Source: Acholoe squamosa
Lineage: Eukaryota; Annelida; Polychaeta; Phyllodocida; Polynoidae
Direction: 5' to 3'
Assembly (NCBI GenBank): GCA_949317995.1
Contig: OX439036.1
Span: forward strand, 103,399,891-103,463,890
Length of the DNA stretch: 64,000 bases
Shown one piece after another: positions 3,709 to 59,500 of this stretch. Position numbers and translations under genes: made by a program. Each line of letters opens with the position of its first letter. The first letter of the stretch is position 1. Below the pieces are notes generated by a model that ran no database searches, had not been told where the DNA came from, and worked only from the letters and a program-made list of their open reading frames with translations.

Positions 3709-5293
3709 CTAAGCTCGAGGGGGGGGGGCGATGTTTGCCTCCACCTCTAGACTTTTTCCCGGAGATGTACGGAATGCCCCCAGGCACAATCTCATACCTT
3801 GGTTCTGGATAGGCTTCATCCTGTCCAAGTAGCTGGGGCATGCTAATCCATATACAATAGAGCCATAGTCTAGTCTTGACTGGATGTAGGCCCTGTATAA
3901 GATCAGTAATGTTTCTTTGTCGGCACCCCAGTCTGTGTGGGAAAGCAATTTCAGGAGATTCATGGCTTTTTGACATTTCCTCCTCAAGTATTCGATGTGT
4001 TGTTTGAAGTTGAGTATTCTGTCGAATATCAGGAACTTCACTTCTCCTTTGACTTAGAGTGCCGTGTTCTGGAGGTGGAGCGTTGGTTTTTCTTTACATC
4101 CATTTCTGCAACAGAAGTGGAAACAGGTAGTTTTGGTCTGTGAGAACTTGAAGCCGTTTTGGGAGCTACATGTTTCAAGGTGGTTCAGGGCCTGTTGAAG
4201 CTTTCTTTCAATAGTTTGAATATGCCTCGATCTGTAGCAAATGACAAAGTCATCCACATACAATGAGCAATTGATGCCATTTTGTAAATTTTTGGTTTTT
4301 TCATTAATCTTTATGCCAAACAGGGTTACAGAGAGGACACAGCCCTGGGGGACACCCATTTCTTGTTCTACTCTGTCTGAGAGTGTAGTGTCAAGGCGTA
4401 CACTGAATACTCTGTTGGCAAGAAATTTTGATACAAACAGGGGAAGCCTTCCACGGAGCCCTAGTTTGTGAATGTCTTTCAGGATTCCATGTTTCCATGT
4501 GGTGTCATAGGCCTTCTCTAGGTTGAGGAAGATAGCAACCACATGTTCATTATTTGCAAATCCCTTTGGATGTAACTTTCTAACCTGACAAGATGGTCTG
4601 TCGTGCTACGATTTTTCCGGAATCCTGACTGAAGTGGATTCATGAGTTACCACATCAGTCGGCTGTTCTTTCCATAGTTTTGACAAGGCAGCTTGTCATT
4701 GCTATGGGTCTGATGTTACAAGGTTGACTGTGGTCTTTTCCTGGTTTGGGGATGGGTACGATCAGTGCCTTTGCCCATGATGTGGGATATTTCCCATTTA
4801 CCCAGATATCATTGAAGATATCCAGTAGGAGAATGAGTTGATTGGCAGGGAGATGTTTCAGCATTTGGTAGTGGATCTTATCCGGGCTTGGGCTGGAGTC
4901 TTTTGAGCCATTTAATGCATGTTTCAATTCACGAATGTTAAAAGTTAGGTTATAGTTCTCTTTATCATCTGAAGAGAAGTTGGGTTTGTGTAATTCTTCT
5001 TTTTCTTTATGTCTCAGGATTGTGTGGGTGCAGTTTTCACTTGACGAGGTTTTGCAGAATTGGTTCACCAGCGCATTTGCAATCTTTTGCTTTGTTCTTT
5101 TGGATTCGCCCCCAACTCTCAGGTGGTGTATTGTTGGGTTGCTGGCCTTCCCTTTCATTCTATTCACCGCTTGCCAGACCTTTTTCATGGATTTAGACAA
5201 GGGGAGAGATTTAACATAATTTTGGAAAGATTTTCTTTTAGTCATTTTGAGCGTTAATTTGGTTTTCGCTCTTGTCTGGAGGAAGTTGTACAA
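3709..5293 (-). pseudogene. Reverse transcriptase region of the I-clade LINE
   Basis: Frame 5293-4655 carries SPSPDKIHYQMLKHLP and a PIPKPGKDHSQP segment followed by RPIAMTSC, the RT fingers of this clade. Frame 4542-4054 carries FLNLEKAYDTTW (first catalytic Asp position altered to Asn, FLNLEKAYD for the usual FFDLEKAYD), MGVPQGCVLS and the YVDDF active site. Frame 4041-3709 carries the thumb with DWGADKETLL and LDYGSIVYG. At least two frame breaks and the altered residue show it is inactive. Confidence 0.75.
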
Positions 5294-5679
5294 GTTTTCT
5301 GGGAATATGTGTTTGTTAAATTTTCTGAGGCCCCTCTTGCGTTCCTTTCAAGCTGCTTTGCATTTGTCGTTGTACCATGGAAGAGATTTTTTGGATAGCT
5401 TTTTTTATGTTATCGGGATGCTCATCTTGCTTATCTCTGTAAAGTATTGGATGGTATCCCTCTTCTGAGCCACATGTACCCATGGCAGGAAGGAAATTTC
5501 ACAGAGTTTCTGGAATTCATCCCATTCAGCTCTTTGTATTTTCCATGTTGGGTTCCTTTGGTTGTTGTTGTTATGTTTTTGAGTTTTTAGGATGATAGGA
5601 AAGTCATCACTTCCACAAAGATCATTATGGACAGTCCATCCATATTCAGCAAAGATGTTTGGATGACCTATGGTTAGAT

Positions 5680-11942: not shown

Positions 11943-12308
11943 ATGGTCGACAATCAAGAAATTACTTTCGCCTTAGATACAGCATCAGCAGTATTGATCA
12001 TCGGTGAAAGTGATTATGGGCAGTATTTCTCGCATCTTCAACTCCATGAAGCCAGTGTTAACTTGAAGTCGTACACCGGACATCGGGTAGAGCTACTTGG
12101 TGAAATCGACGTAACAGTGAAGTATGGTAATCAGGAAAACTGGTTGCCATTGGTCATCGCAAAAGGTCAACATACTCCATTATTTGGTCGTACATGGTTA
12201 AAAGTCATACACTTTCACTGGCCAAGTATATTCGCAGTAAATGAAACTTCAACACTAGATCAAGAAGAAGGTATTGGGGAAATTAAAAAAGTGACTGGGC
12301 ATCACTAG
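11943..12308 (+). pseudogene. Retropepsin-like protease of the gypsy element
   Basis: The frame contains FALDTASAVLIIGE, the retropepsin active-site segment with the catalytic Asp. The usual DTG is DTA here, a change that would be expected to impair the enzyme. The flap-like and LFGRTWLK segments near the C-terminus match the protease-RT junction of gypsy pol. The next frame overlaps its end at 12308, so pol is split by a frame change. Confidence 0.6.
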
Positions 12309-12967
12309 TGGTAGTGGTTCCAAAAGGGATTGGAAAGTTACACTTGTGCCAGGATTATAAAGTCTTGATAAACAGTGCAGTTATAAATCAGCCATACACA
12401 CTCCCAACGGCTGATGATATATTTACTACGCTCGCTGGAGAATGTGAGTTTACAAAGTTAGATTTATCGAATGCTTATGCACAAGTTGATGAAAAGTAAA
12501 GGAAAAATCTCACTATAAACACTGTGAAAGGACTGTATGAGGTAGTCAGACTACCATATGGTGTAAAAACAGCTCCACACATATTCCAGGCGATCATGGA
12601 TCAGATCCTGCAAGGGATTCCTGGAGTTTGCTGGTATATTGATGATATACTCATCACATATCTGGGACACATACTCAGCAAAGATGGCAGCAGGCCCGTA
12701 CCAGAGAAAATCACAGCAGTCAAAGAAGCGAAGGGCCCAGAAAATGTCTCAGAACTCTGTACATTCTTAGGAATGGTCAATTATAATGGATCATTCATAA
12801 AGGACCTATCGACCATAATTGCACCACTAAATAATCTGCTGAAAGATGATGTGCCATGGAGATGGTCAGCTGGGTGTAAAAAGTCATTCGAGAAAGTGAA
12901 GGAGGCACTGACAGATAAAACTGTCCTGACGCATTATGATGTCAACAAAAGGTTGCTACTAGCATGT
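12308..12967 (+). pseudogene. Reverse transcriptase of the gypsy element, with internal deletion
   Basis: Visible blocks are CQDYKVLINSAV, FTKLDLSNAYAQ, RLPYGVKTAPHIFQAIMDQI and the YIDD active site (WYIDDILIT). The frame then jumps straight to YLGHILSKDG. In complete gypsy RTs about 40 residues separate these two blocks, so roughly 120 bp are deleted in frame. A stop at 12499 breaks the first half. The connection to RNase H is interrupted by the insertion at 12969. Confidence 0.75.
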
Positions 12968-12968
12968 G

Positions 12969-13499
12969 TAGGGGCCAGCTCTGCCGTAAGGCCAGCAGCC
13001 CCGTTACTGGAAATCCCAGCCCCCAGGGGCTGGCATCCGGTGGTAGCTCCCCCCTACGTGTGTGTCATACCAATCCAGGTGTAGGTGCCTGGAACGGTAT
13101 AATACAGATACGCTTCGACCCTGGCAGTACTGTGTACTGGTAGGTCAACTGGGAAGTCAGGAGTGCCTCACACTGCTTGATAAAGCCCAATCGATCTGGT
13201 TGGGAGGAATGCTTGGTGTTGGTTGGCCATGGTTGAAGCTGGTTGGGAGGAGTGTAGGGGCCAGCTCTGGCTGTAAGTCCATGGCGGTAGGCCATCTGCC
13301 CCGTTCCGGTTGCACCAGCCCTCAGGGGCTGGTCAGCTGGTATAAGCTGCCCCCCTTGTGTATTATACCGATCCAGATGTAGGTGGAAGGTAGAGAATGT
13401 CAGACGGGGAAGTAGCTCAGCGGTAGAGCTTCCGCCTGCAGGTTGGAGGGTCCCGGGTTCGACTCCCGGTTTCTCCAGGACATTTTCCACCGACCTCTA
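12969..13499. mobile_element. Inverted-repeat element carrying a tRNA-Cys-like gene
   Basis: This insert splits the gypsy RNase H codons. The left end TGTAGGGGCCAG and right end CCGACCTCTACA are imperfect inverted repeats (10 of 12), with CATG on both sides as a possible duplication. Inside are two diverged tandem units that each begin GTAGGGGCCAGCTCTG (12969 and 13253) and share a GTATTATACCGATCCAG-type segment. The second unit is followed by the tRNA-like gene. Boundaries are accurate to a few bases. Confidence 0.6.
13406..13477 (+). tRNA. tRNA-Cys (GCA) or tRNA-Cys-like pseudogene
   Basis: The 72-nt cloverleaf folds completely. The acceptor is GGGGAAG with TTTCTCC plus discriminator A, the D-stem is GCTC/GAGC, and the T-stem is CCGGG/CCCGG with loop TTCGACT. 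The anticodon loop CTGCAGG gives anticodon GCA, which reads Cys codons. The length of 72 is usual for eukaryotic tRNA-Cys. Position 31-39 is a C-T mismatch and 30-40 is G-T, so the anticodon stem is weak. It lies within a mobile inverted-repeat element, so it may be one of many dispersed copies rather than the housekeeping gene. Confidence 0.65.
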
Positions 13500-13503
13500 C
13501 ACA

Positions 13504-13947
13504 TGCAATGCATCACCCTATGGGATTGGAGTTGTGCTGTCGCATGTAGATGAAAATGGTGAAGAAAGACCCATAGCATATGGGTCTTGCACTCTGATTA
13601 CAGCCGAGCAGAAATATGCTCAAATAAAACGTGAAGCTTTAGGAATAATAGTCGGCGTGAAAAAGTTTCACAAGTACCTGTACAGTAGAAAGTTTGATCT
13701 CTTAACGGACCATAAGCCGTTACCCAAAATCTTCGGTCCAAAGACGGTTGTACCAACATTAGCAGCTCTTAGACTACAAAGATGGGCGCTGATTCTTATG
13801 ACTTATGACTATGAGGTGAGCTACAAGAGATCATCAGATCATGCTAATGCGGACTATCTTAGTCGGATGCCAGTTGAAAAAGCAAAAAGTGATATCAAGG
13901 CGGATAAACTACCCATCCATGCCAGACATAAAAGAAGCAACTCTTAA
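13504..13947 (+). pseudogene. RNase H of the gypsy element
   Basis: The frame resumes after the insertion with ASPYGIGVVLSHVDENGEER, then CTLITAEQKYAQIKREALGI, LLTDHKPL and DHANADYLSRMP. These are the standard blocks of the gypsy RNase H domain, including the EAL and TDHKPL motifs and the DYLSR end. The first catalytic Asp lies at the insertion junction. The frame ends with a stop at 13945, before any integrase. Confidence 0.75.
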
Positions 13948-16019: not shown

Positions 16020-17340
16020 TTGATAAACTTAAGAACTTAGACTGGACTAATTTTGAAAATTCACGATCCTCCGAAACTTGCTGGAATATCTTTGAAAAAA
16101 ACCTATACGATACTTTAGACAGCATGTGTCCCATTAGAGAATTTAAAATCAAAGACCAAAGTTTGCCTTGGATGACAAATTATTTATTAGAACGGATTAA
16201 TGAAAAAAATGAAATGCTAAAAACAGCTAGGAAGTCCGGGTCTGTCCTCGATTGGTACAGAGCTAGAACTATTAGAAACCAGGTTAACATGGAGAAAGAG
16301 ACTGCAAGGCAAAATTTCTTCAAAAAGGAATGTGATGATAACATCAAAGAAACCAAAGCATTTTGGAGAAGTATAAAAAAGGTTATTCCATCAAAAAATT
16401 CGGACAATTGTATAATAAATTTGATAAATGAAAACAAGAACTCAGTAGAATTACCTGACACTGCCTCATTTATTAATGAATTTTTTGTCAATATAGGACC
16501 AAGCCTAGCCAGCAAACATACCGATCAATGGTATCCAGAGATGTAATAATCAAATGTCTAAAAGACATCGACACATCGAAATCTTCTTGTCTCAATTATA
16601 TACCTACTAATATATTTAAGGAAGCAACTCTGTGTATGATTGAAAAATTTGAAAAAATAATCAAATTATGTATCGAAACTAGTAAAATTCCTAGCAGCTG
16701 GAAAATTGCTGTAGTCACCCCCCTACCAAAAGGAGGAGACAATACAAATGTATCTAATTATTGTCCAATCAGTGTTCTTCCTGTACCAGGTAAAATTTTC
16801 GAAAGGTTAATACATAATGCAATCTCCCAGCATTTAGCCACGAACTCAATATTAACTGAACGCCAAGAAGGATACCAGAGAGATAAGTCTACTACAGACT
16901 CCATAAGTTCCTTTGTAAATGATGTATTAAGAAATCGGAACATTGGATATATAACTTTAGCAGCATTTATTGACATCAAGAAGGCTTTTGACTCAGTTAA
17001 TTATCTAATATTACTGGAAAAACTTGAACGCTACGGTATAAGGAGAAAAAACTTAGAATTAATCAGGAATTATTTGACAAATAGAAAACAATGTACCATG
17101 GCAAATAATATTAAGTCAGCAGAATTACCCCTAACCTGTGGAGTACCCCAAGACAAACTCGCCTACATGATGCTCCAGTACTTTTCTATAGTAATATAAA
17201 CTGTAAAGCATATGAAAAAGGTCCCGAAGTAAGATGTGCCCAATTGTGGAATGCCTTACCTACAAATACTAGAAATATAAGAGAAATAGGTACTTTCAAA
17301 GACCTGATGAAATTGGATTTAATGAAAACCATCCCATGAA
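16020..17340 (+). pseudogene. LINE reverse transcriptase fragment of the CR1-like element
   Basis: Fragments run from a linker (16124-16546) through SSCLNYIPTNIFKEA, VVTPLPKGGDNTNVSNYCPI, AAFIDIKKAFDSVNY and LTCGVPQ. The sequence then jumps to an unrelated DKLAYMMLQYF stretch and, in a new frame, to EVRCAQLWNALPTNTRNI, the far C-terminus. The YADD active site and everything between are deleted. Stops at 16544 and 17197 also break it. Confidence 0.7.
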
Positions 17341-17690: not shown

Positions 17691-19035
17691 TAGGCGGGAA
17701 AGGTTTTGCTGTAATCTCCTTTCTACCGTTGCCTTGGAGGTGCCCCGATAGGCAGCACTCAACATTGTGGGCAAGGGTTTTCGCTATTCCGTTGATTTTA
17801 ATGCCGAAAAGGGTCACACAGAGAGGACACAGCCCTGGGGGACTCCAGTTTCTTGGTCAACTCTCGTGGAGTGTGAGGCACCAAGTTGGACATTAAACAT
17901 TCTGTTTGCAAGGAAGCCTTCCACAAATTGTGGCAGTCTGCCTCGCAGTCCCAATTTTTCCATGTCTTGGAGAATGCCAAATTTCCATGTTGTGTTGTAA
18001 GCCTTTTCAAGGTAATAAAATACAGCAACAACATGTTCCTTGTTGGTGAATCATTTCCGGATAAAACTCTCAAGACGGTCTAGGTGGTCAGTTGTACTGC
18101 GACCTTTTCTGAATCTAATCTGGTACTGGTTTAGAAGATCATTCGACTCCAGGTACCATACCAGTCTGTTGTTGACCATCCTTTCCATTGTCTTGGCCAG
18201 ACAGCTGGTCATAGCAATGGGTCTGTAGCTCGAGGGCATAGATGGATCCTTTCCAGGTTTTGGAATCGGTACAACTAAGGCCTCCAACCAGGATGATGGG
18301 TATTGACCGGTGGTCCAGGTGTTGTTAAAGATGTCCAGGAGCAAACTCAGTTGGTGCTCTGGGAGATGCTTTAACATCTGGTAATGAATCTCATCAGGGC
18401 CTGGAGATGAGTCTTTTGCCTGCTCGAGAGCATGGTGTAACCCAGCCATTGTGAACAGCTTGTTGTATGCTTCCATGTTGTCAGAGTGCAGGTTTAATGG
18501 GTTCATCTCCTCCCTTTCTTTATGTTGGTGGAATTTGTCTTGGTAGTTGGCACTGGAGGAGACTTTGCTGAAGTGATCAGCAAGAGAATTCGCAATCTCT
18601 TGTGTCGTCTCCAAAGTCTCATCACCAACCTTGATGTGGGTTGCTGTGGGAGTCAGTTGTCCATTGAGCTTCTTCACCTTTTGATATACCCTTTTCAGGG
18701 GGGTGGAGGTGTCGATGGTGTTGACATACTCACGGAATGACTCACGCTTCACGTTGTTGTACACCAGTTTGGTTCTGGCTTGTTCTTGGTAATATGCTAG
18801 CATATTTCCCAAGTTCATGTTGCTCTCCAATTTCCTCAGTGCCTTCCTTCTGAGTCTTTTTGACTCGCGACACTCGTCGTTAAACCAGTACGCCCGTTTG
18901 GCACAAGGTTGTTTGGAGGTTTTCGGGATGCACATAGCACTCACCTCCCTGAGGGTTTCTGTGAAGTACTGTGTCGGGTTGTTTTTCTCTTTGACCAGTT
19001 CCCAGGGTAAGAAGGACCTACTACAGGTGTCCTGG
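17691..19035 (-). mobile_element. I-clade LINE fragment, RT portion, second copy
   Basis: On the minus strand this carries HIKVGDETLETTQEIANSLA, SSPGPDEIHYQMLKHLP, PIPKPGKDPSMPSSYRPIAM, FRKGRSTTDHLDRL and a shifted VPHTPRELTKK region. It is the same family as 2579-6990, but closer to the canonical sequence. It begins inside the endonuclease-RT linker and ends before the YVDD motif, so it is truncated at both ends. It lies between the CR1-like LINE and a gypsy pol tail. Confidence 0.7.
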
Positions 19036-21004: not shown

Positions 21005-21082
21005 TTAATGTATCTTTAACCCAGGCATCAGTGGGGTTATTCCCAGCAAACCCCAATGAGTCCTGGGTTAAAGATACATTAA
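21005..21082. repeat. 78-bp foldback with perfect 21-bp arms
   Basis: Arm 21005-21025 (TTAATGTATCTTTAACCCAG plus G) is the exact complement of 21062-21082. A nested TGGGGTT/AACCCCA pair lies in the loop. Perfect arms suggest a recent or constrained hairpin, either a tiny MITE or a structured RNA. It lies about 250 bp before the first recognised phosphatase exon. Confidence 0.75.
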
Positions 21083-21326
21083 AAGCTTAATAAAAGTATG
21101 CCAAAATCAACATGAAAATAGGGTGGTCTTTTCTTTTAAATGCAGCAGTTTATGGTAGTGTGTGCCTGATATTGTGTCCCTAAATTCAGTAACAACAAAT
21201 TGGTTTTCAGTAAAAAGACACGTTTGTTGCAGAAGCATAATCTGGAGTAACCAGACAGGTGAAGTTAGGGTGCATAATCAATGAATCCGCACAATGATAA
21301 TCATATAATTCATTCTTTTATTTCAG

Positions 21327-21550
21327 AACCAAGAGTAGATTGGTTTCAGCAAACAAAAGAAGAACTGAGGGAGGCATTAAAGTATCGCCCCAATTTGAAG
21401 CAAGCTAAGAATGTCATCTTCTTTATGGGTGATGGAATGGGTGTTTCAACCCTGACAGCCGCCAGAACCTACAATGCACAAAACAGAGATTTGAGCTTCA
21501 AAGATGCTCGGCTTTCATTTGAGAAGTTGCCACATGGTGGTCTACTGAGG
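21327..21550 (+). CDS. ALP: Alkaline phosphatase exon with first metal-binding Asp
   Basis: Acceptor TTTCAG and donor GTAAGA frame this exon. It encodes [13 protein letters not shown] and [21 protein letters not shown], whose Asp in GDG is the first zinc/magnesium ligand of the family. It begins in codon phase 1 (completing a Glu codon) and ends in phase 0. Confidence 0.92.
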
Positions 21551-24500
21551 GTAAGATTATTAGAAGCTTTTTCATCGATTTCCTCTAATCAGAACTATTT
21601 ACAGCACATCAACAGTTTACACAGCTATAGCTTTTTGAACTGTATTCAAATTAACACTTTTTAGCTTTTATGATTCATTGAGATGATACTACACTAGTAC
21701 AGGCATGATATATCATACTGTTTTGTCAAGGATTATAGTTGACAGGGAAACAAAGTGAATGGATTCCCAATTTAGTTATAGCCTTCATTGGTACCAACAA
21801 CTCTATTGGTTTTGCAGACATACAGTGTTGATGATATGGTAGCTGAGTCAGCCTGTGCAGCAGGAGCGATGTTATTTGGAGAGAAAGTTAGATCAAATAC
21901 AATTGGAGTGAACCAGAATGTATATGTTAACCGATGTGATCAAGTGGAGGGAAACACTCTGACATCAACCTTGAAGCATGCCCATAAAGCAGGTAGGGAC
22001 ATCTTTAAGTTAGTAGTGAGTTAGTAAGCAGTCAAGACAGGAAGGAAGACAATGATGTGTGGGAGCGACTTAAAGTGTCTATGACTGGGGTAGACACTGT
22101 CACTGACAAAGAAAGTAAAGAGGACAGTGGAGCATGGGAAAAAGTGACAAGGTCAAAAGACAGAGCCACAAACAGTACAGAACCTGCTTCTGATGTAAAG
22201 ACCAAGACTCAGACCAATGAAACCAAAGATGAAAAAGGCAGAGAAGCTCAAGTGCATACAGTACCATCAAAATCACCATGCAAACCCACCAACATGAAAA
22301 CAAAACAGAACCACAAGCGAAGACCCGTATTCTGCTTCCGGGGTAAACATTCTCCACTGTCAAACTTCTATCCTGTAACTCTTCGCTACAGGGGAGTTGA
22401 TTACCTCTGTGTTGAGCAGGCGTATCAACATCTTAAAGCCGTCCACGCAGACAACGAGGAAAAAGCAGAGCGTATCATGAACTCAACCAGTCCATACTGG
22501 ATGAAACGGCATGGAGATACAATCTCCAAGAATGGTGAATGGGAACGCAGAAAAGTGGCAATCATGCGTGAGCTGCTCCTTCTAAAGGTCGACAAATGCC
22601 CTGAGGTCAGGGCAATGCTCTCCAGATACAAGGACACAATACTGGTTGAGGCGGTATGTGATGACTTCTGGGGTTCAGGGCATGAGGAGGATGACACTAA
22701 CCGCATACACCCAGAGGAATGGCGGGGAGAGAATATGATGGGCCAACTTTGGATGGACATCCAGAAGATGGTAACAAAGGAATCCCCACACACTAACAAG
22801 AGTGGTCCCACTAGAGGACAAGATGTCTGTCAGGGTGCATCAAGGGACGTGGCATCAGATGATCAAGCCACCAGTGTAAGAAACGAGATAACGCCAGACT
22901 ACCTAATAATTGGCAATAGTAACGCAAGAGGCATGGCTGGCCTCCTAGTACGCAAAGGGCTCTCTGCAACGAGTGTTGTCATGCCAGGCGCCAACATCGA
23001 TGCCATTGCGGATGCAGTCAGCACCATGAAAAGCAAACCCAAATATGTGGTTGTTCATGCCTTGGACATTGATGTACACACCCATCTACCCCTACCTAGG
23101 CTTTTCAATTCTATAGATCATCTTCTAGAGAATATGAGACAAGCCTTCCCCAGTGCACATATCATGATATCTGGTCTTCCAAAATATAACAACTTCAGGT
23201 TGGACACAGTACGAGCACACCTAGAGGCATACATTAAACATCGTCTCACAAAAGACCCTAAGAGCTGCCTCATTAACAATAGTGACCTCGCCTTACAAGA
23301 CAAAATCCATCTCACCTGGCATGCCAAACAATCCCTCTGCGAGCGGCTTGCACACCTTGCCTTCCCTAATAAATAGGACAGGAGGCATGCATACCCCCTG
23401 CGGAGTACCCTTAGCAATGATGCCCTCGAGAATATAACAATAGTATACTGGAACATCCATGGTCTGGGGGACAAACTCACCTACCCTCATATTCAGTCTA
23501 TCATATCTAGTCACAATATCATAATATTTAGTGAAATTTGGAAAAAAAAGGATTTTCAACCATGCATCCCAGGGTACAAATATTTCCAGGTTAACCGCAA
23601 GCAGAGACATCCAAATGCCAGAAGGGCTTCTGGTGGTTTAGGGGTTTTTATCTCTAAAGAAATTGAAGGTGCTATACAACTCGAAGCTGTATCTGACTTT
23701 TCTGTATGGATCCATCTTAACTCTAAATACTTTGGTTTTGTACGTGATGTGGTGGTAGGTGCTTTATATATACCACCAGAAGGATCAACATATACAGCTG
23801 AAAATGATAACTTCTTTGACATTATATGTGAGCAGATTGCTGAAATGGAGCATAAAGATGTTGATTTACTGTTCTGTGGTGACTTAAATGCACGCACTTC
23901 ATCTGTTAATGAGCTTAGTTCAGACTCACTTACACTAGTCACAGGTACCTTACCAACCGTAAGAAAGTCTGATGATCAAACTGTAAATAGTAATGGCAAA
24001 GAGCTGATCCAACTATGTAAAGATACAGACCTAGTAGTACTTAATGGCAGGTTAGGAGATGTAGATAATACAGGTGGCTTTACATGTTACACTGCAAATG
24101 GGCAGAGTGTGGTTGATTACTTATTATGTAAGGCAAGCTCTGTTGGTATATGTAAACATATGAAAATAGGTGATCTGTTACCAGATTCTGACCACAAGCC
24201 ATTAATCTTTACACTAAGAGGTGCTAATCTTAACTTTGATACTAGTCAAAACAAAACTGAACAGTATATGGCATATAAATGGAATGGGACGAAAAAAGAA
24301 TTATACAAGGAGAATCTCAGAGGCAAAGAGTGTAACCAACTTAGAGATCATATAATATTTCTGGCTGCTGACCCAACCCTTAACAGTAAGGAAATAATTG
24401 ATACATACTACACACTTCTTGACTCTGCAATCCCTGTCCAAAAAAGTTCAAGGTCTAAAACAACTAAATTCCCTCAAAATCCGTGGTTTAATGCTGAGTG

Positions 24501-27500
24501 CAAGTTAGCAAAGAGGAATGTGCATGACTATGGTAAGAATTATGACCTCAAGGTTGAATTCAATAAAGAAATGTATAACATGCTTAAGAGGGAATACAAT
24601 AGACTAGTCCAGAAATGTAAAAGGAGTGATAAAAGAAGAAAGGGTCTTGAGTTTGAAAGAATGTTGGAGATAGAAAATAGTAATAGGTTCTGGAAGTCGT
24701 GGAAACAAATACAAGGTAAAATGACCCAATGTGATATCAACATAGCGGAGTTTGTTGAATACTTCAAGAAACAGCAGACTCCTCCACATATTGACTATTT
24801 TGATTATGATAATATGAAAGAAATAGAAACATTTGTCGATAACTTTGAGTTTAGCTATGGTTCAGAGGATATAGATGCATTGATACAATCCCTACTAGAC
24901 TCCCCTATCACTATAGAAGAGGTAGAAGATGCAATAAGATCTCTAAAAAATAAGAAAGCAGCCGGAACAGATGGTATACCTGCTGAATACTTAAAACAAG
25001 GAGGGAAGGTTTTTGCTGAGGTGATTCAAATTATGTTTAACTGCATATGGGACACTGCTGAATTTCCAGAGAGATGGGCAGAAGGAATAATAAGTCCCTT
25101 ACATAAGAAAGGTGATACAAACGATCCTGATAACTATAGAAAAATTACTATTATGAACAGTACATGCAAACTTTTTGAAATAATTATTAATAAAAGACTG
25201 AAATTCAATAATGATATGCTGAATCAGAATGACCCTCTACAGAACGGGTTCGTAGATAAAGGTAGGACAACCGATAATGTATTTGTACTATATACTGCTG
25301 TGAAAATGGTGCAGGCTGAAGGTAAATCTCTCTTCTGTTGTTTTATTGACTTTACTAAGGCCTTTGATTATATTAACAGGAAGGCATTATTCTATAAGTT
25401 GATATCTGGGCAGGTAAAAGGGAAAGCACTTAAAGTTCTAATGAATCTTTACAAGAAGTCTCACTCAAAGGTACGGGTCAACTCTGAATTAAGTGAGAAC
25501 ATAGATAGTTTATACGGTGTGTTACAAGGTGGAGTACTCAGTCCTAAATTATTCAATGCTTTTCTCTTAGATATTGGTGAACATCTTGACCCTAATCTTG
25601 GAATTGATGTTTGTGGTATGAGTCTTGCTTATCTGCTATATGCAGATGACTTGGTTATAATGTCCACCTCAGCTAGGGGTCTGCAGAATCAGCTAAACAA
25701 TTTGTTTCAGTATTGTAGAAAATGGCATCTACTAGTAAATATAAATAAGTCAAACATCATGATATTTAATCACAAAAAGAAGGATATTACTAACACCTTC
25801 AAGTATGGTGACACGCAGCTAGTAAGAGTAGAAAATTATAAGTACTTAGGGTTTATACTAACAACTAATCATAAAGACATCTTCTTTGATGCATACAATC
25901 AGCTTTATGACAAGGGTAGAAAAGCTGCCTATCAATCATATTCATGTTGCTATCAACATATTGGAAAACCAGATCCCAGGATGGCGCTCAAGTTATTTGA
26001 TAGCCAGATAAGACCCTGCCTTGACTATGGCTGTGAGGTATGGGGCCTGACTAAGGGAAATAAGGTGGAGAAACTAGAGTCCATACACCTAAGGTACTTA
26101 AAATCAATGTTGAGTGTTAGAAAGCAGACAACAACAGCTGCAGTATATGCAGATACAGGGAGGGTACCTCTAAAAGCGCAATGGGAAATTCAAGCACTCA
26201 GATACTGGGAAAGAATTGTAAACCTCCCAGAGTCACACATACTACGTAAGTGTTACAAGAAGCTAACTTTGCTTGAAGTTTCTGGTCAGATAAATTGGTG
26301 CAGTAATATTAAATGCTTGTTGCACTCACTAGGTGAGCGTTATATTCAACTCTGGATTAACCAGACAACTTCCGACGACCCTAAAGCTATCACTGCTGTA
26401 ACTGGACCGATAAATAGGAAATATATAGAACAAACAATGAATGAAATAACATCAGCTGGTGAAGGAAAAAAACTAAGAACATACAAAATATTCAAAACTG
26501 AGTTTAGGCTTGAAAGTTACCTATTCTGTATCCCTAACCAAGCCCATCGTACAGCATTAGCTCGTTTTAGACTCAGCTCTCATAACCTGGGTATAGAAAC
26601 AGGAAGGCATTGCCGGCCCCCAAAACCTGTGTGTGATCGGATTTGTCTATATTGTTCTAGTGGCCTTGTAGATGATGAAATACATTTTCTTATCCGATGT
26701 GACTCTCATAGTGTATCAAGACAGTTGTTTGACAATGTTATGAATGAAAAAAATCAAAACTATCATGAATTGAATGATGTAGAGAAATTCATTTCTGCTA
26801 TGAACAATACTAATACTGACGTCATCAAAGCTCTCGCCAAGTTTATATACAATGCATTTAGACAGAGACAGGAACTCTAATTGCTAGCCTATGTAACAGA
26901 TGTGTATACTATGATATTCATGTAATCACCACTGTAACAAAGAGTGGGTATGTGTGCCAGGAGAGAGAGGGATGGAGAAAGAGAGAGAATTAGTGTGCGT
27001 ATGTGTGTGTGAGAGGGAGAGAGAGCGAAAGAGAGTGATAGTAAGCCTTAGACTTAGTCGTAGAGTAGAGTAGTGGACATATTATATATATATATATATA
27101 CATGCTATATATGTAAAGAACCATTTATGTATGACACATAGGTCAGTAATGACCTCTTTTTTGCTGTCAATAAAATATATTATTATTATTTAAAGAAAAC
27201 CGTAAGTGAACCAAAAAGGTAAAATGTAACGTATCCCATCACTTACAAAGGTTTCAGACTGAGCCTAAAGATTACAGAGTTCAGGGCTCTAGATAGGTAT
27301 CTTCGGAGAAAAACATGTTTGTGTATAATCTGACACAGTGTTGATGGATATATATGTATCATACATCAATTTGACCATATTCATTGCCTCTATCAAATTT
27401 GCTGCATTTTATGAGGATTCGGTTGCCATGGAGAGAAAATGGAACAAAAACGGTCTCTTGTTGTTCCTTTTCATTTGAACCGCACTATAGTATAGACATA

Positions 27501-56475: not shown

Positions 56476-56546
56476 TTAATAATAATAATAATATTTTTTA
56501 TTGACAACAAAGACGGTCAGTACTGACCCAGGTGTCATACATGAAA
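56476..56546 (-). mobile_element. Truncated 3-prime end of the NADAR-type LINE family
   Basis: Read on the minus strand it carries ATGTATGACACCTGGGTCAG, the TGACC hairpin arm, TGTCAATAAAAAATATT and an ATT-repeat tail, matching 27126-27192. The hairpin is GGTCA-GTAC-TGACC at 56515-56528. Only about 70 bp remain, as expected for a 5-prime-truncated insertion. It lies just before the acceptor of the first coding exon of the repeat-protein gene. Confidence 0.75.
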
Positions 56547-56577
56547 ATTTATTTATTTATTTATTTTGATTTTTAAG

Positions 56578-59500
56578 ATGCCGTTGACTCCAGAAGAGAA
56601 GTCAGAAAGAGCAAAGGAGAGCACATCCACATGGAGGGAGAAGGTCAAAAACACACAAGAGTATAAAGACTGGGATAAAAAGTCTAAGGAGGTAATTTCA
56701 ATATATATATATTTAATTATCATATTGTGCCAAAATAAACAACCCAAAAAAAGTACTGGAGCTGCAGTACAGCAGTGTCTTCCCGAGTGATACTCATTGG
56801 AGGGTAATGCCAAAAGAAATGACCAAAATTTGATGTCTTCCCGAGTGATGCTATACATTATATGGATATGTATTCTAATTTTTTCCTAGGATTACGAGAA
56901 GAGAAACCCAGACAGGAAAGTGAGAAGGCTCATGCCGGAAGATAAACTTGAGACAAACTTGCAAGGAGGGAGGCAAGGAGGCTCCTAAAAGAAGGAAAAC
57001 CTACTGGCAAGGCTAAAGGCACAGGTATGTATTATACATGTACATGTACATGCTAACATGTATAATAACATAGTTCTTGTGAGTTAAACATTTCCGATAT
57101 CTGAGAAGAAAATTATATGGAGGGTTATGCCCAAAGAAATAATCAAATTTTATGAAATACAAAGTCAATAGTAAAAGCCAATTACAAGTTATAATTTAAT
57201 TCATTTTACAGATAAGCAGGCAGACCCTAACCCAGGCACTTCAGGAAGGTCTTCTCACCGCCTTGCAGGTGTGAGTGCAGACACACCAGCCAAGCTGCCT
57301 GTCAAGCGCAGAAAGCCTGCAAGTCCAGATGTAAATGCAAAGATAAGTCCCTCACAGTCACGGATGGACTTCTACAAGTCCACACCTAAGAAGGCCCCTC
57401 CTGCAAAGAAGGCCCCCTCTGCAGCAGCCTCTGTGCCACCACCGGAGTCTGTGCCACCACCGGAGTCTGTGCCACCACAGGAGTCTGTCCCACCACCGGA
57501 GTCTCCAGGGTCCAAGGCCACTCCTGCTAGGAAGGTCCTGAAGGTCCGGAAGGCCCCCTCTGCAGCAGCCTCTGTGCCACCACCGGAGTCTGTGCCACCA
57601 CCGGAGTCTCCAGGGTCCAAGACCACTCCTGCTAAGAAGGTCCGGAAGGCCCCCTCTGCAGCAGCCTCTGTGCCACCACCGGAGTCTGTGCCACCACCGG
57701 AGTCTGTGCCACCACAGGAGTCTGTCCCACCACCGGAGTCTCCAGGGTCCAAGGCCACTCCTGCTAGGAAGGACCTGAAGGTCCGGAAGGCCCCCTCTGC
57801 AGCAGCCTCTGTGCCACCACCGGAGTCTGTGCCACCACCGGAGTCTGTGCCACCACCGGAGTCTCCAGGGTCCAAGGCCACTCCTGCTAGGAAGGTCCGG
57901 AAGGCCCCCTCTGCAGCAGCCTCTGTGCCACCACCGGAGTCTGTGCCACCACAGGAGTCTGTCCCACCACCGGAGTCTCCAGGGTCCAAGGCCACTCCTG
58001 CTAGGAAGGTCCGGAAGGCCCCCTCTGCAGCAGCCTCTGTGCCACCACCGGAGTCTGTGCCACCACCGGAGTCTCCAGGGTCCAAGACCACTCCTGCTAG
58101 GAAGGTCCGGAAGGCCCCCTCTGCAGCAGCCTCTGTGCCACCACCGGAGTCTGTGCCACCACCGGAGTCTGTGCCACCACCGGAGTCTCCAGGGTCCAAG
58201 GCCACTCCTGCTAGGAAGGTCCGGAAGGCCCCCTCTGCAGCAGCCTCTGTGCCACCAACGGAGTCTGTGCCACCACCGGAGTCTGTGCCACCACCGGAGT
58301 CTCCAGGGTCCAAGGCCACTCCTGCTAGGAAGGTCCGGAAGGCCCCCTCTGCAGCAGCCTCTGTGCCACCAACGGAGTCTGTGCCACCACCGGAGTCTCC
58401 AGGGTCCGAGGCCAGTCCTGCTAGGAAGGTCCGGAAGGCCCCCTCTGCAGCAGCCTCTGTGCCACCACCGTAGTCTGTGCCACCACCGGAGTCTCCAGGG
58501 TCCAAGACCACTCCTGCTAGGAAGGTCCGGAAGGCCCCCTCTCCAGCAGCCTCTGTGCCACCACCGGAGTCTGTGCCACCACCGGAGTCTGTGCCACCAC
58601 CGGAGTCTCCAGGGTCCAAGGCCACTCCTGCTAGGAAGGTCCGGAAGGCCCCCTCTGCAGCAGCCTCTGTGCCACCACCGGAGTCTGTGCCACCACCTGA
58701 GTCTGTGCCACCACAGGAGTCTGTCCCACCACCGGAGTCTCCAGGGTCCAAGGCCACTCCTGCTAGGAAGGTCCGGAAGGCCCCCTCTGCAGCAGCCTCT
58801 GTGCCACCACCGGAGTCTGTGCCACCACCGGAGTCTGTGCCACCACCGGAGTCTGTGCCACCACAGGAGTCTGTGCCACCACCGGAGTCTGTGCCACCAC
58901 AGGAGTCTGTGCCACCACAGGAGTCTGTCCCACCACAGGAGTCTGTGCCACCACCGAAGTCTCCAACCACTACCACATCCCCAACCACTGAGGTGCATGT
59001 AGAAGTTCATGCAGAGATGGATAAGTAAGTCTATTGCATCATTTCTTTGGGCATCACATTTCCTGTATGAACCTAGTATAATATAGAATAACTCATGAAG
59101 ACAAGTACTTTTTGGCCATTTCTTTGGGCATAGCCCTCCTTCACATTTCTTCTATGGGTCCTATGAGCTTTAAAAATTTACGTTGTTGAAAATAAAAAAT
59201 GTGTTATTCATTCTTTTTTCAGACCTACATCTATGGCAGTCGTTCCCTTGCCCACCCAACAGAGGCCCAAACCACCACAGCAGCAGGAGGACCTAGACTC
59301 CATTGATTTTTTGGGATCAGTAGATGTCTCTCCACCCCCGACCCGTTCTCAAAGAGACAGAATTAGGAGGAACTTGAACTTGACCTTTGAAGCCTCGTAA
59401 GTACAGTTATAATTTGGATGAACTTTATAAATGCTATATATTCAATTCTCAATTATCTAAAAATTTAATAAATATCCTGACAAATTAGATAACACAAAAC

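Follow-up and report, generated by a model that had tools for sequence, protein, structure and literature searches.

We analyzed a 64,000-nt stretch of the polynoid annelid Acholoe squamosa (contig OX439036.1, positions 103,399,891 to 103,463,890; hereafter the window), which carries a non-long-terminal-repeat (non-LTR) retrotransposon, or long interspersed nuclear element (LINE), whose first open reading frame (ORF1) joins a NADAR domain to an SGNH domain. The element lies on the + strand, with its 5′ end within 21995-22081 and its 3′ end at about 27190, and ORF1 and ORF2 are both open and share one frame, with a single TAG between them. The features of the element are as follows:

22057..23376, + strand: ORF1, 439 codons from a GTG or 431 if counted from 22081, where the first in-frame ATG stands, closed by the TAG at 23374-23376
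22345..22767, + strand: NADAR (YbiA-like) domain, ORF1 residues 97-237, found by Pfam, by PDB profile and by structure model with fold match
22786..22884, + strand: low-confidence linker, ORF1 residues 244-276 (model residues 156-188, predicted local distance difference test score <50)
22885..23370, + strand: SGNH (GDSL esterase-like) domain, ORF1 residues 277-438, found by PDB profile, fold match and residue alignment
23377..26880, + strand: ORF2, a stop-free frame with an apurinic/apyrimidinic (AP) endonuclease (Exo_endo_phos) and a reverse transcriptase (RVT_1, about 25105-25860)
26881..27190, + strand: 3′ untranslated region, with a palindrome-like GGTCAGTAATGACC at 27141-27154, AATAAA and an (ATT)n tail

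The endonuclease and reverse transcriptase of ORF2, the 3′ tail and the lack of an LTR identify the element as a LINE, and the longest direct repeat between 20500 and 28500 spans 30 bases. The initial annotation, made from the letters of the window, had read ORF1 as a NADAR followed by an SGNH domain in a LINE, a reading that is borne out for each of the domains, for the order in which they stand and for the LINE setting.

The two domains of ORF1

The NADAR domain scores 96.3 bits in Pfam against a gathering score of 35.1, and it is also recovered by a profile against the PDB and by a fold match to an ADP-ribose complex. The structure model, compared by VIA-align re-alignment to the 1000 best chains from Foldseek, places this part in the YbiA fold and the C-terminal part in the SGNH fold. 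A charged stretch precedes the NADAR at the N terminus, and Pfam finds no RRM in ORF1.

The SGNH part has a modeled SGNH fold and a profile match at 7.4e-12 to the LINE esterase of ZfL2-1 (PDB 4c1b). The SGNH residue names follow PMC3905857. The window protein keeps S288 and G311 by alignment, as well as D415 and H418 in a DxxH motif, which lies beyond the end of the 4c1b alignment, and has I338 in place of the oxyanion-hole Asn of block III. The same pattern runs through the ten SGNH rows of alignment A1 (the window and P0001-P0009, P0131 not being among them): the equivalents of Ser143 and Gly165 are present in 10/10 rows and the DxxH motif (taken as Asp279/His282) in all 9 of the 9 rows that reach that far, and the Asn195 equivalent is found in 0/10, with Ile, Val or Ser there instead. 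Equivalents of the transposon-specific H191 and S228 occur together in the window, P0004, P0006, P0008 and P0009; P0001 has S228 without H191, and P0002, P0003, P0005 and P0007 have neither. Because the oxyanion Asn is missing from every row, we describe the window domain as fold kin of the LINE-esterase SGNH hydrolases, with a putative activity, and not as an active hydrolase.

Relatives of ORF1 and ORF2

A first search with ORF1 returned 10 proteins and a profile search, in which the 8000 best candidates were scored, returned 3 further; all counts of relatives are lower bounds. The fusion extends beyond the window copy, with 10 other proteins (P0001-P0009 and P0131) carrying a Pfam NADAR followed, in the same order, by an SGNH GNSNAR motif. 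Their two-domain part is 26-43% identical to that of the window (P0002 is incomplete, lacking the start of the NADAR and the end of the SGNH), and a sub-threshold Lipase_GDSL_2 match is seen in the SGNH part of P0003, P0004, P0006, P0007, P0009 and P0131 (best 7.5e-5), and also of P0008. In the three remaining proteins the NADAR stands behind a different N-terminal part, scoring 76.5 bits in P0010, 104.4 bits in P0132 and 32.8 bits in P0133, which is cut short and falls below the 35.1 cut-off. As one profile (A5), these three match the NADAR 8bau at 8.8e-15 and, over positions 58-214, the L1 ORF1p 2ykp at 5.9e-5. By sequence, then, there are two kinds of ORF1, one with the NADAR N-terminal to an SGNH domain and the other with the NADAR C-terminal to an L1-like ORF1 (coiled coil, RRM-like).

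The NADAR trees are compatible with one capture of the domain or with several. A 14-row tree, which left out P0002, P0133 and 8bau, placed the window, P0001, P0132 and P0010 together at 78/88, a fork that was not starred and at which long branches meet, and a single clade of the ten SGNH-linked rows was not rejected (approximately unbiased test, p-AU 0.137). A 15-row tree, whose window row was miscut and extended to residue 439, did not separate the deep forks either. The ORF1 profile and the L1-type profile each found one distant NADAR in viral contigs (L001 and L002, respectively), and an ORF1 search of bacterial and archaeal contigs gave no match.

ORF2 matches Exo_endo_phos at 1.2e-9 and RVT_1 at 1.5e-29 in Pfam, and among solved chains it matches human L1 ORF2p most strongly (2.1e-26), with R2 behind (7.8e-19). 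The TAG that closes ORF1 looks genuine, because the ORF1s of relatives stop at a similar place. The earliest in-frame ATG of ORF2, at 23845, already falls within the endonuclease domain. Among the 22 nearest ORF2 relatives (P0011-P0032), by contrast, 18 are predicted to start 5′ of the endonuclease motif, which makes the start of the window ORF2 a loose end: it may be translated by stop readthrough, by reinitiation or from a non-AUG start, or the start may have been lost in this copy. Other LINE remnants in the window, at 16555-17271 (+), 17799-18941 (-) and 4566-5497 (-), show 22-24% similarity to this ORF2, with one 25-residue piece at 36%.

The initial annotation had also asked whether the fusion is always attached to this ORF2. 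A protein search with ORF2 gave 190 matches, 120 of them listed. A quick tree was built from 51 rows (the window and 50 picked among the matches listed; Shimodaira-Hasegawa-like approximate likelihood ratio test support only), and in it the window ORF2 groups with 23 others, including P0020, at a support of 97. The contig of P0020 has the same size, 6928 bases, as that of P0007, a NADAR-SGNH ORF1, and from this equality the two probably share one contig. Exact size matches between 10 ORF1 and 110 ORF2 contigs numbered 1 vs an average of 0.145 when the lengths were shifted, and, for contigs >6000 bases (2 x 14), 1 vs 0.011; this comparison set aside 3 ORF1 contigs >600 kb and ten of the 120 listed ORF2 rows, nine because their contigs exceed 100 kb and one because it has no length. 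An ORF2 search of viral contigs gave no match, and that of bacterial and archaeal contigs gave two stray contigs, L003 and L004, of which L003 encodes an ORF2 26% identical to that of the window, together with a coiled-coil ORF1 that, judged by eye, is L1-type and has no NADAR motifs. This contig is filed under a cyanobacterial metagenome-assembled genome and is probably misbinned eukaryotic DNA. Given its ORF1, members of the wider ORF2 group seem to be paired with more than one kind of ORF1, as would be expected from the exchange of ORF1s among LINEs described in PMC4120745.

The NADAR pocket and its proposed function

We compared the pocket of the LINE-type NADARs with that of the P. nicotianae NADAR, whose residue names (PMC11543638) are used here; with the numbering shifted by 2 relative to the 8bau chain, as read from the alignment, the published letter was matched at 11/11 positions. 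In the window, the equivalents of the published ADP-ribose contacts are E120, K127, K150, W162, K166 (for Arg), E198, D202 and W205, with the positions of K127 and K166 counted by hand from the alignment. Seven letters are thus identical (E43, K50, K75, W89, E125, D130 and W133) and K stands for R93, and R79 (D instead), Y84 and D86 are missing. E. coli YbiA likewise has seven identical letters and K for R93, and lacks K75, Y84 and D86.

Across the 12 complete LINE-type NADARs (the window, P0001, P0003-P0010, P0131 and P0132, leaving out the incomplete P0002 and P0133), E43, K75, W89 and D130 are kept in 12/12 and W133 in 11/12 (Ser in P0010). The E125 site, at which subfamilies differ in having E, D or H (PMC11543638), is E in 4/12 (window residue E198, and P0001, P0010 and P0132) and H in 8/12 (P0003-P0009 and P0131), and H is the state of the phage NADAR, which is active (PMC11125620). 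The K50 site is K in 8/12, R in 1/12 and M in 3/12 (P0003, P0007 and P0131), all three of the M proteins also having H at the E125 site, and the R93 site is K or R in 10/12. The equivalent of K50 is essential in the E. coli C7 NADAR, where R is tolerated in vitro (PMC11543638). By these published requirements at the E125 site and K50, the window NADAR looks catalytically competent, and those of P0003, P0007 and P0131 may not be. Because the pocket sites persist at 26-43% identity, the alignment suggests that the pocket is under selection.

In DNA, NADARs take ADP-ribose off the amino group of guanine (PMC11543638, PMC11125620); they act on guanine ADP-ribose in RNA too, and they are inactive on RNA ADP-ribosylated at phosphate ends (PMC11833690). 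Guanine-N2 DNA ADP-ribosyltransferase activity and CARP-1 are known from clams (PMC11209040), and it is an untested assumption of PMC11543638 that the marks of CARP-1 and pierisin are erased by NADARs. We propose, and give an even chance, that the NADAR of ORF1p hydrolyses guanine ADP-ribose on the nucleic acid of the element and so protects it from a guanine ADP-ribosyltransferase. In such a mechanism ORF1p, if it binds RNA as we assume, would associate with the element RNA and bring the eraser to the element ribonucleoprotein; the SGNH part would act in assembly or in association with membranes, a role put forward for ZfL2-1; and the NADAR would hydrolyse ADP-ribose off guanines of the element RNA or first-strand cDNA. 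A host or environmental guanine-specific ADP-ribosyltransferase of the pierisin/CARP-1 kind would then be unable to block reverse transcription or translation, much as with the NADAR antitoxin of DarT1-NADAR, but in cis on a mobile element. The presence of NADAR in two kinds of LINE ORF1, the SGNH type and the L1-type, and also in a Gypsy Pol (PMC12477816), favors this proposal. The initial annotation had suggested the stripping of ADP-ribose from element nucleic acid, and that idea gains from the retained ligand residues and from the published guanine ADP-ribose substrate (PMC11543638, PMC11125620, PMC11833690), the activity itself being a prediction.

Several points weigh against it. R79 is R in 0/12 and the adenine and ribose contacts Y84 and D86 are kept in 0/12, though YbiA also lacks Y84, D86 and K75; K50, whose counterpart the E. 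coli C7 NADAR cannot do without, is M in the three proteins named above; and 2/12 (P0010 and P0132) have a residue other than K or R at the R93 site. Furthermore, NADARs outside DarT1 operons cleave the mark in vitro and give poor protection of cells from DarT1 (PMC11125620), and in HeLa cells ZfL2-1 does not require its ORF1 (PMC3905857).

Some of these same losses fit a NADAR that only binds: its ligand would be ADP-ribose, an NAD-derived group or nucleic acid, and it would aid RNA packaging in place of an RRM, without hydrolysis. R79, Y84 and D86 are lost in 12/12 and K50 is M in 3/12, the window ORF1 has no RRM by Pfam, and the SGNH half likewise keeps its fold with changed chemistry, its oxyanion Asn being absent from all 10 rows. 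We nonetheless consider this somewhat unlikely, as E43, D130, W89 and K75 are kept in 12/12 and the catalytic site is E or H in 12/12; nor is the NADAR a simple substitute for an RRM, because P0010, P0132 and P0133 pair it with an L1-like ORF1 core. Rather improbable is an N-glycosidase acting on another substrate. This could be a small metabolite or the NAD-derived caps or ends of RNAs, and the element might thereby be tied to the processing or translation of RNA, a link suggested for SNA-3 of nematodes. YbiA does cleave riboflavin intermediates (PMC11543638), but the NADARs tested in PMC11543638 and PMC11125620 cleave guanine-ADP-ribose, and no sequence feature in the window points to caps or riboflavin. 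The swapping of ORF1s among LINEs (PMC4120745) and the L003 ORF1, by eye L1-type and without NADAR beside a distant ORF2 (26% identity), would also suit a passenger, captured by chance and tolerated with no role in retrotransposition. This we regard as quite improbable, since ORF1 is open in the window and nine untruncated others down to 26% identity with the pocket residues kept, and since NADAR is found in two kinds of ORF1. Target-primed reverse transcription makes nicks, a trigger of PARP1, which would speak for the removal of PARP-made ADP-ribose at the nicked target site and a damping of PARP signaling, as the initial annotation had also raised; PARP products sit on proteins or phosphate ends, and NADARs are inactive on phosphate-end ADP-ribosylated RNA (PMC11833690), which leaves this explanation with very little to recommend it.

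If guanine ADP-ribose is the substrate, some jumping genes may shield their own genetic material from ADP-ribosylation. Were the domain active, this would be evidence for guanine ADP-ribosylation as a real pressure on retroelements in animals, in which the physiological role of NADARs is unclear according to PMC11125620. A broader conjecture, which we hold to be unlikely, is that animals use guanine-specific nucleic-acid ADP-ribosylation of the CARP-1/pierisin kind against mobile elements, and that LINEs would repeatedly have taken NADAR into ORF1 as a counter-defence, an animal counterpart to the pairing of DarT1 with its antitoxin NADAR in which the eraser is on the parasite.

Surroundings of the element and comparison with known systems

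A second copy of the 3′ end marks the same or a close family elsewhere in the window:

56481..56563, - strand: 5′-truncated copy of the 3′ end, identical to 27106-27190 at 68/85 aligned positions

Both sites share GGTCAGTA(A/C)TGACC and an (ATT)n tail, and a count of this 3′-end motif over both strands (<=1 mismatch) gave 2 sites, equal to 4 matches, vs 0.09 expected. RNA folding of the 3′ end is unremarkable (z -1.1 and -0.7). No target-site duplication was found as an exact match of >=7 bases between 21986-22085 and 27161-27260, the 5′ end of the LINE being uncertain. Directly upstream lie two exons of an alkaline phosphatase gene, at 21326-21550 (Pfam Alk_phosphatase, 6.9e-12) and at 21818-21994 (8.6e-7). 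A motif scan of 19-40 kb for more such exons found nothing besides the motif of the first exon, and so does not show the LINE to lie in an intron of a complete gene. Elsewhere in the window are an inverted repeat at 21005-21082 (34 bases, 91% complementary, arms 10 bases apart), LTR-retrotransposon Pol-like pieces at 11943-13947 (protease-, reverse transcriptase- and RNase H-like stretches, judged by eye) and tandem PPPESVPPPESPGSKATPARKVRKAPSAAAS-like repeats forming long open frames at 57271-59028.

NADAR in a LINE ORF1 is already in print, in the one report that we found: PMC12477816 (Genome Biology 2025) describes it in the ORF1 of several Repbase Tx1 LINEs of Crassostrea gigas. The accessible text of that paper names NADAR alone, with no SGNH partner or second kind of ORF1, and the ORF1s of the oyster could belong to one kind or the other. 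With that proviso, we found no report of NADAR and SGNH in one ORF1, or of NADAR on an L1-type ORF1, in the portions of the open PubMed Central literature that were available. What was a remark on oyster LINEs thus becomes a defined ORF1 architecture, common to diverged proteins and with a predicted substrate. The same paper reports NADAR in the Gypsy Pol of Ectocarpus, with closest blastp matches that are mostly bacterial; this too is a NADAR acquired by a retroelement, but an LTR element of a brown alga that carries it in Pol.

Among the LINE ORF1 types, the window protein resembles the SGNH-esterase ORF1 (type IV; ZfL2-1, PDB 4c1b; PMC3905857, PMC4120745) in its SGNH on the C-terminal side, with Ser, Gly, DxxH and the H191 and S228 equivalents, and differs in adding a NADAR and in having lost the Asn195 equivalent. 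The L1-type ORF1 (type II) resembles the core of P0132, P0010 and P0133, which add a C-terminal NADAR, whereas the window ORF1 is of the other type. The window NADAR has its fold, most ligand residues and the proposed chemistry in common with DarT1-NADAR, YbiA and the P. nicotianae NADAR (8bau). Unlike those stand-alone or operon proteins, it lies within a mobile element's own protein.
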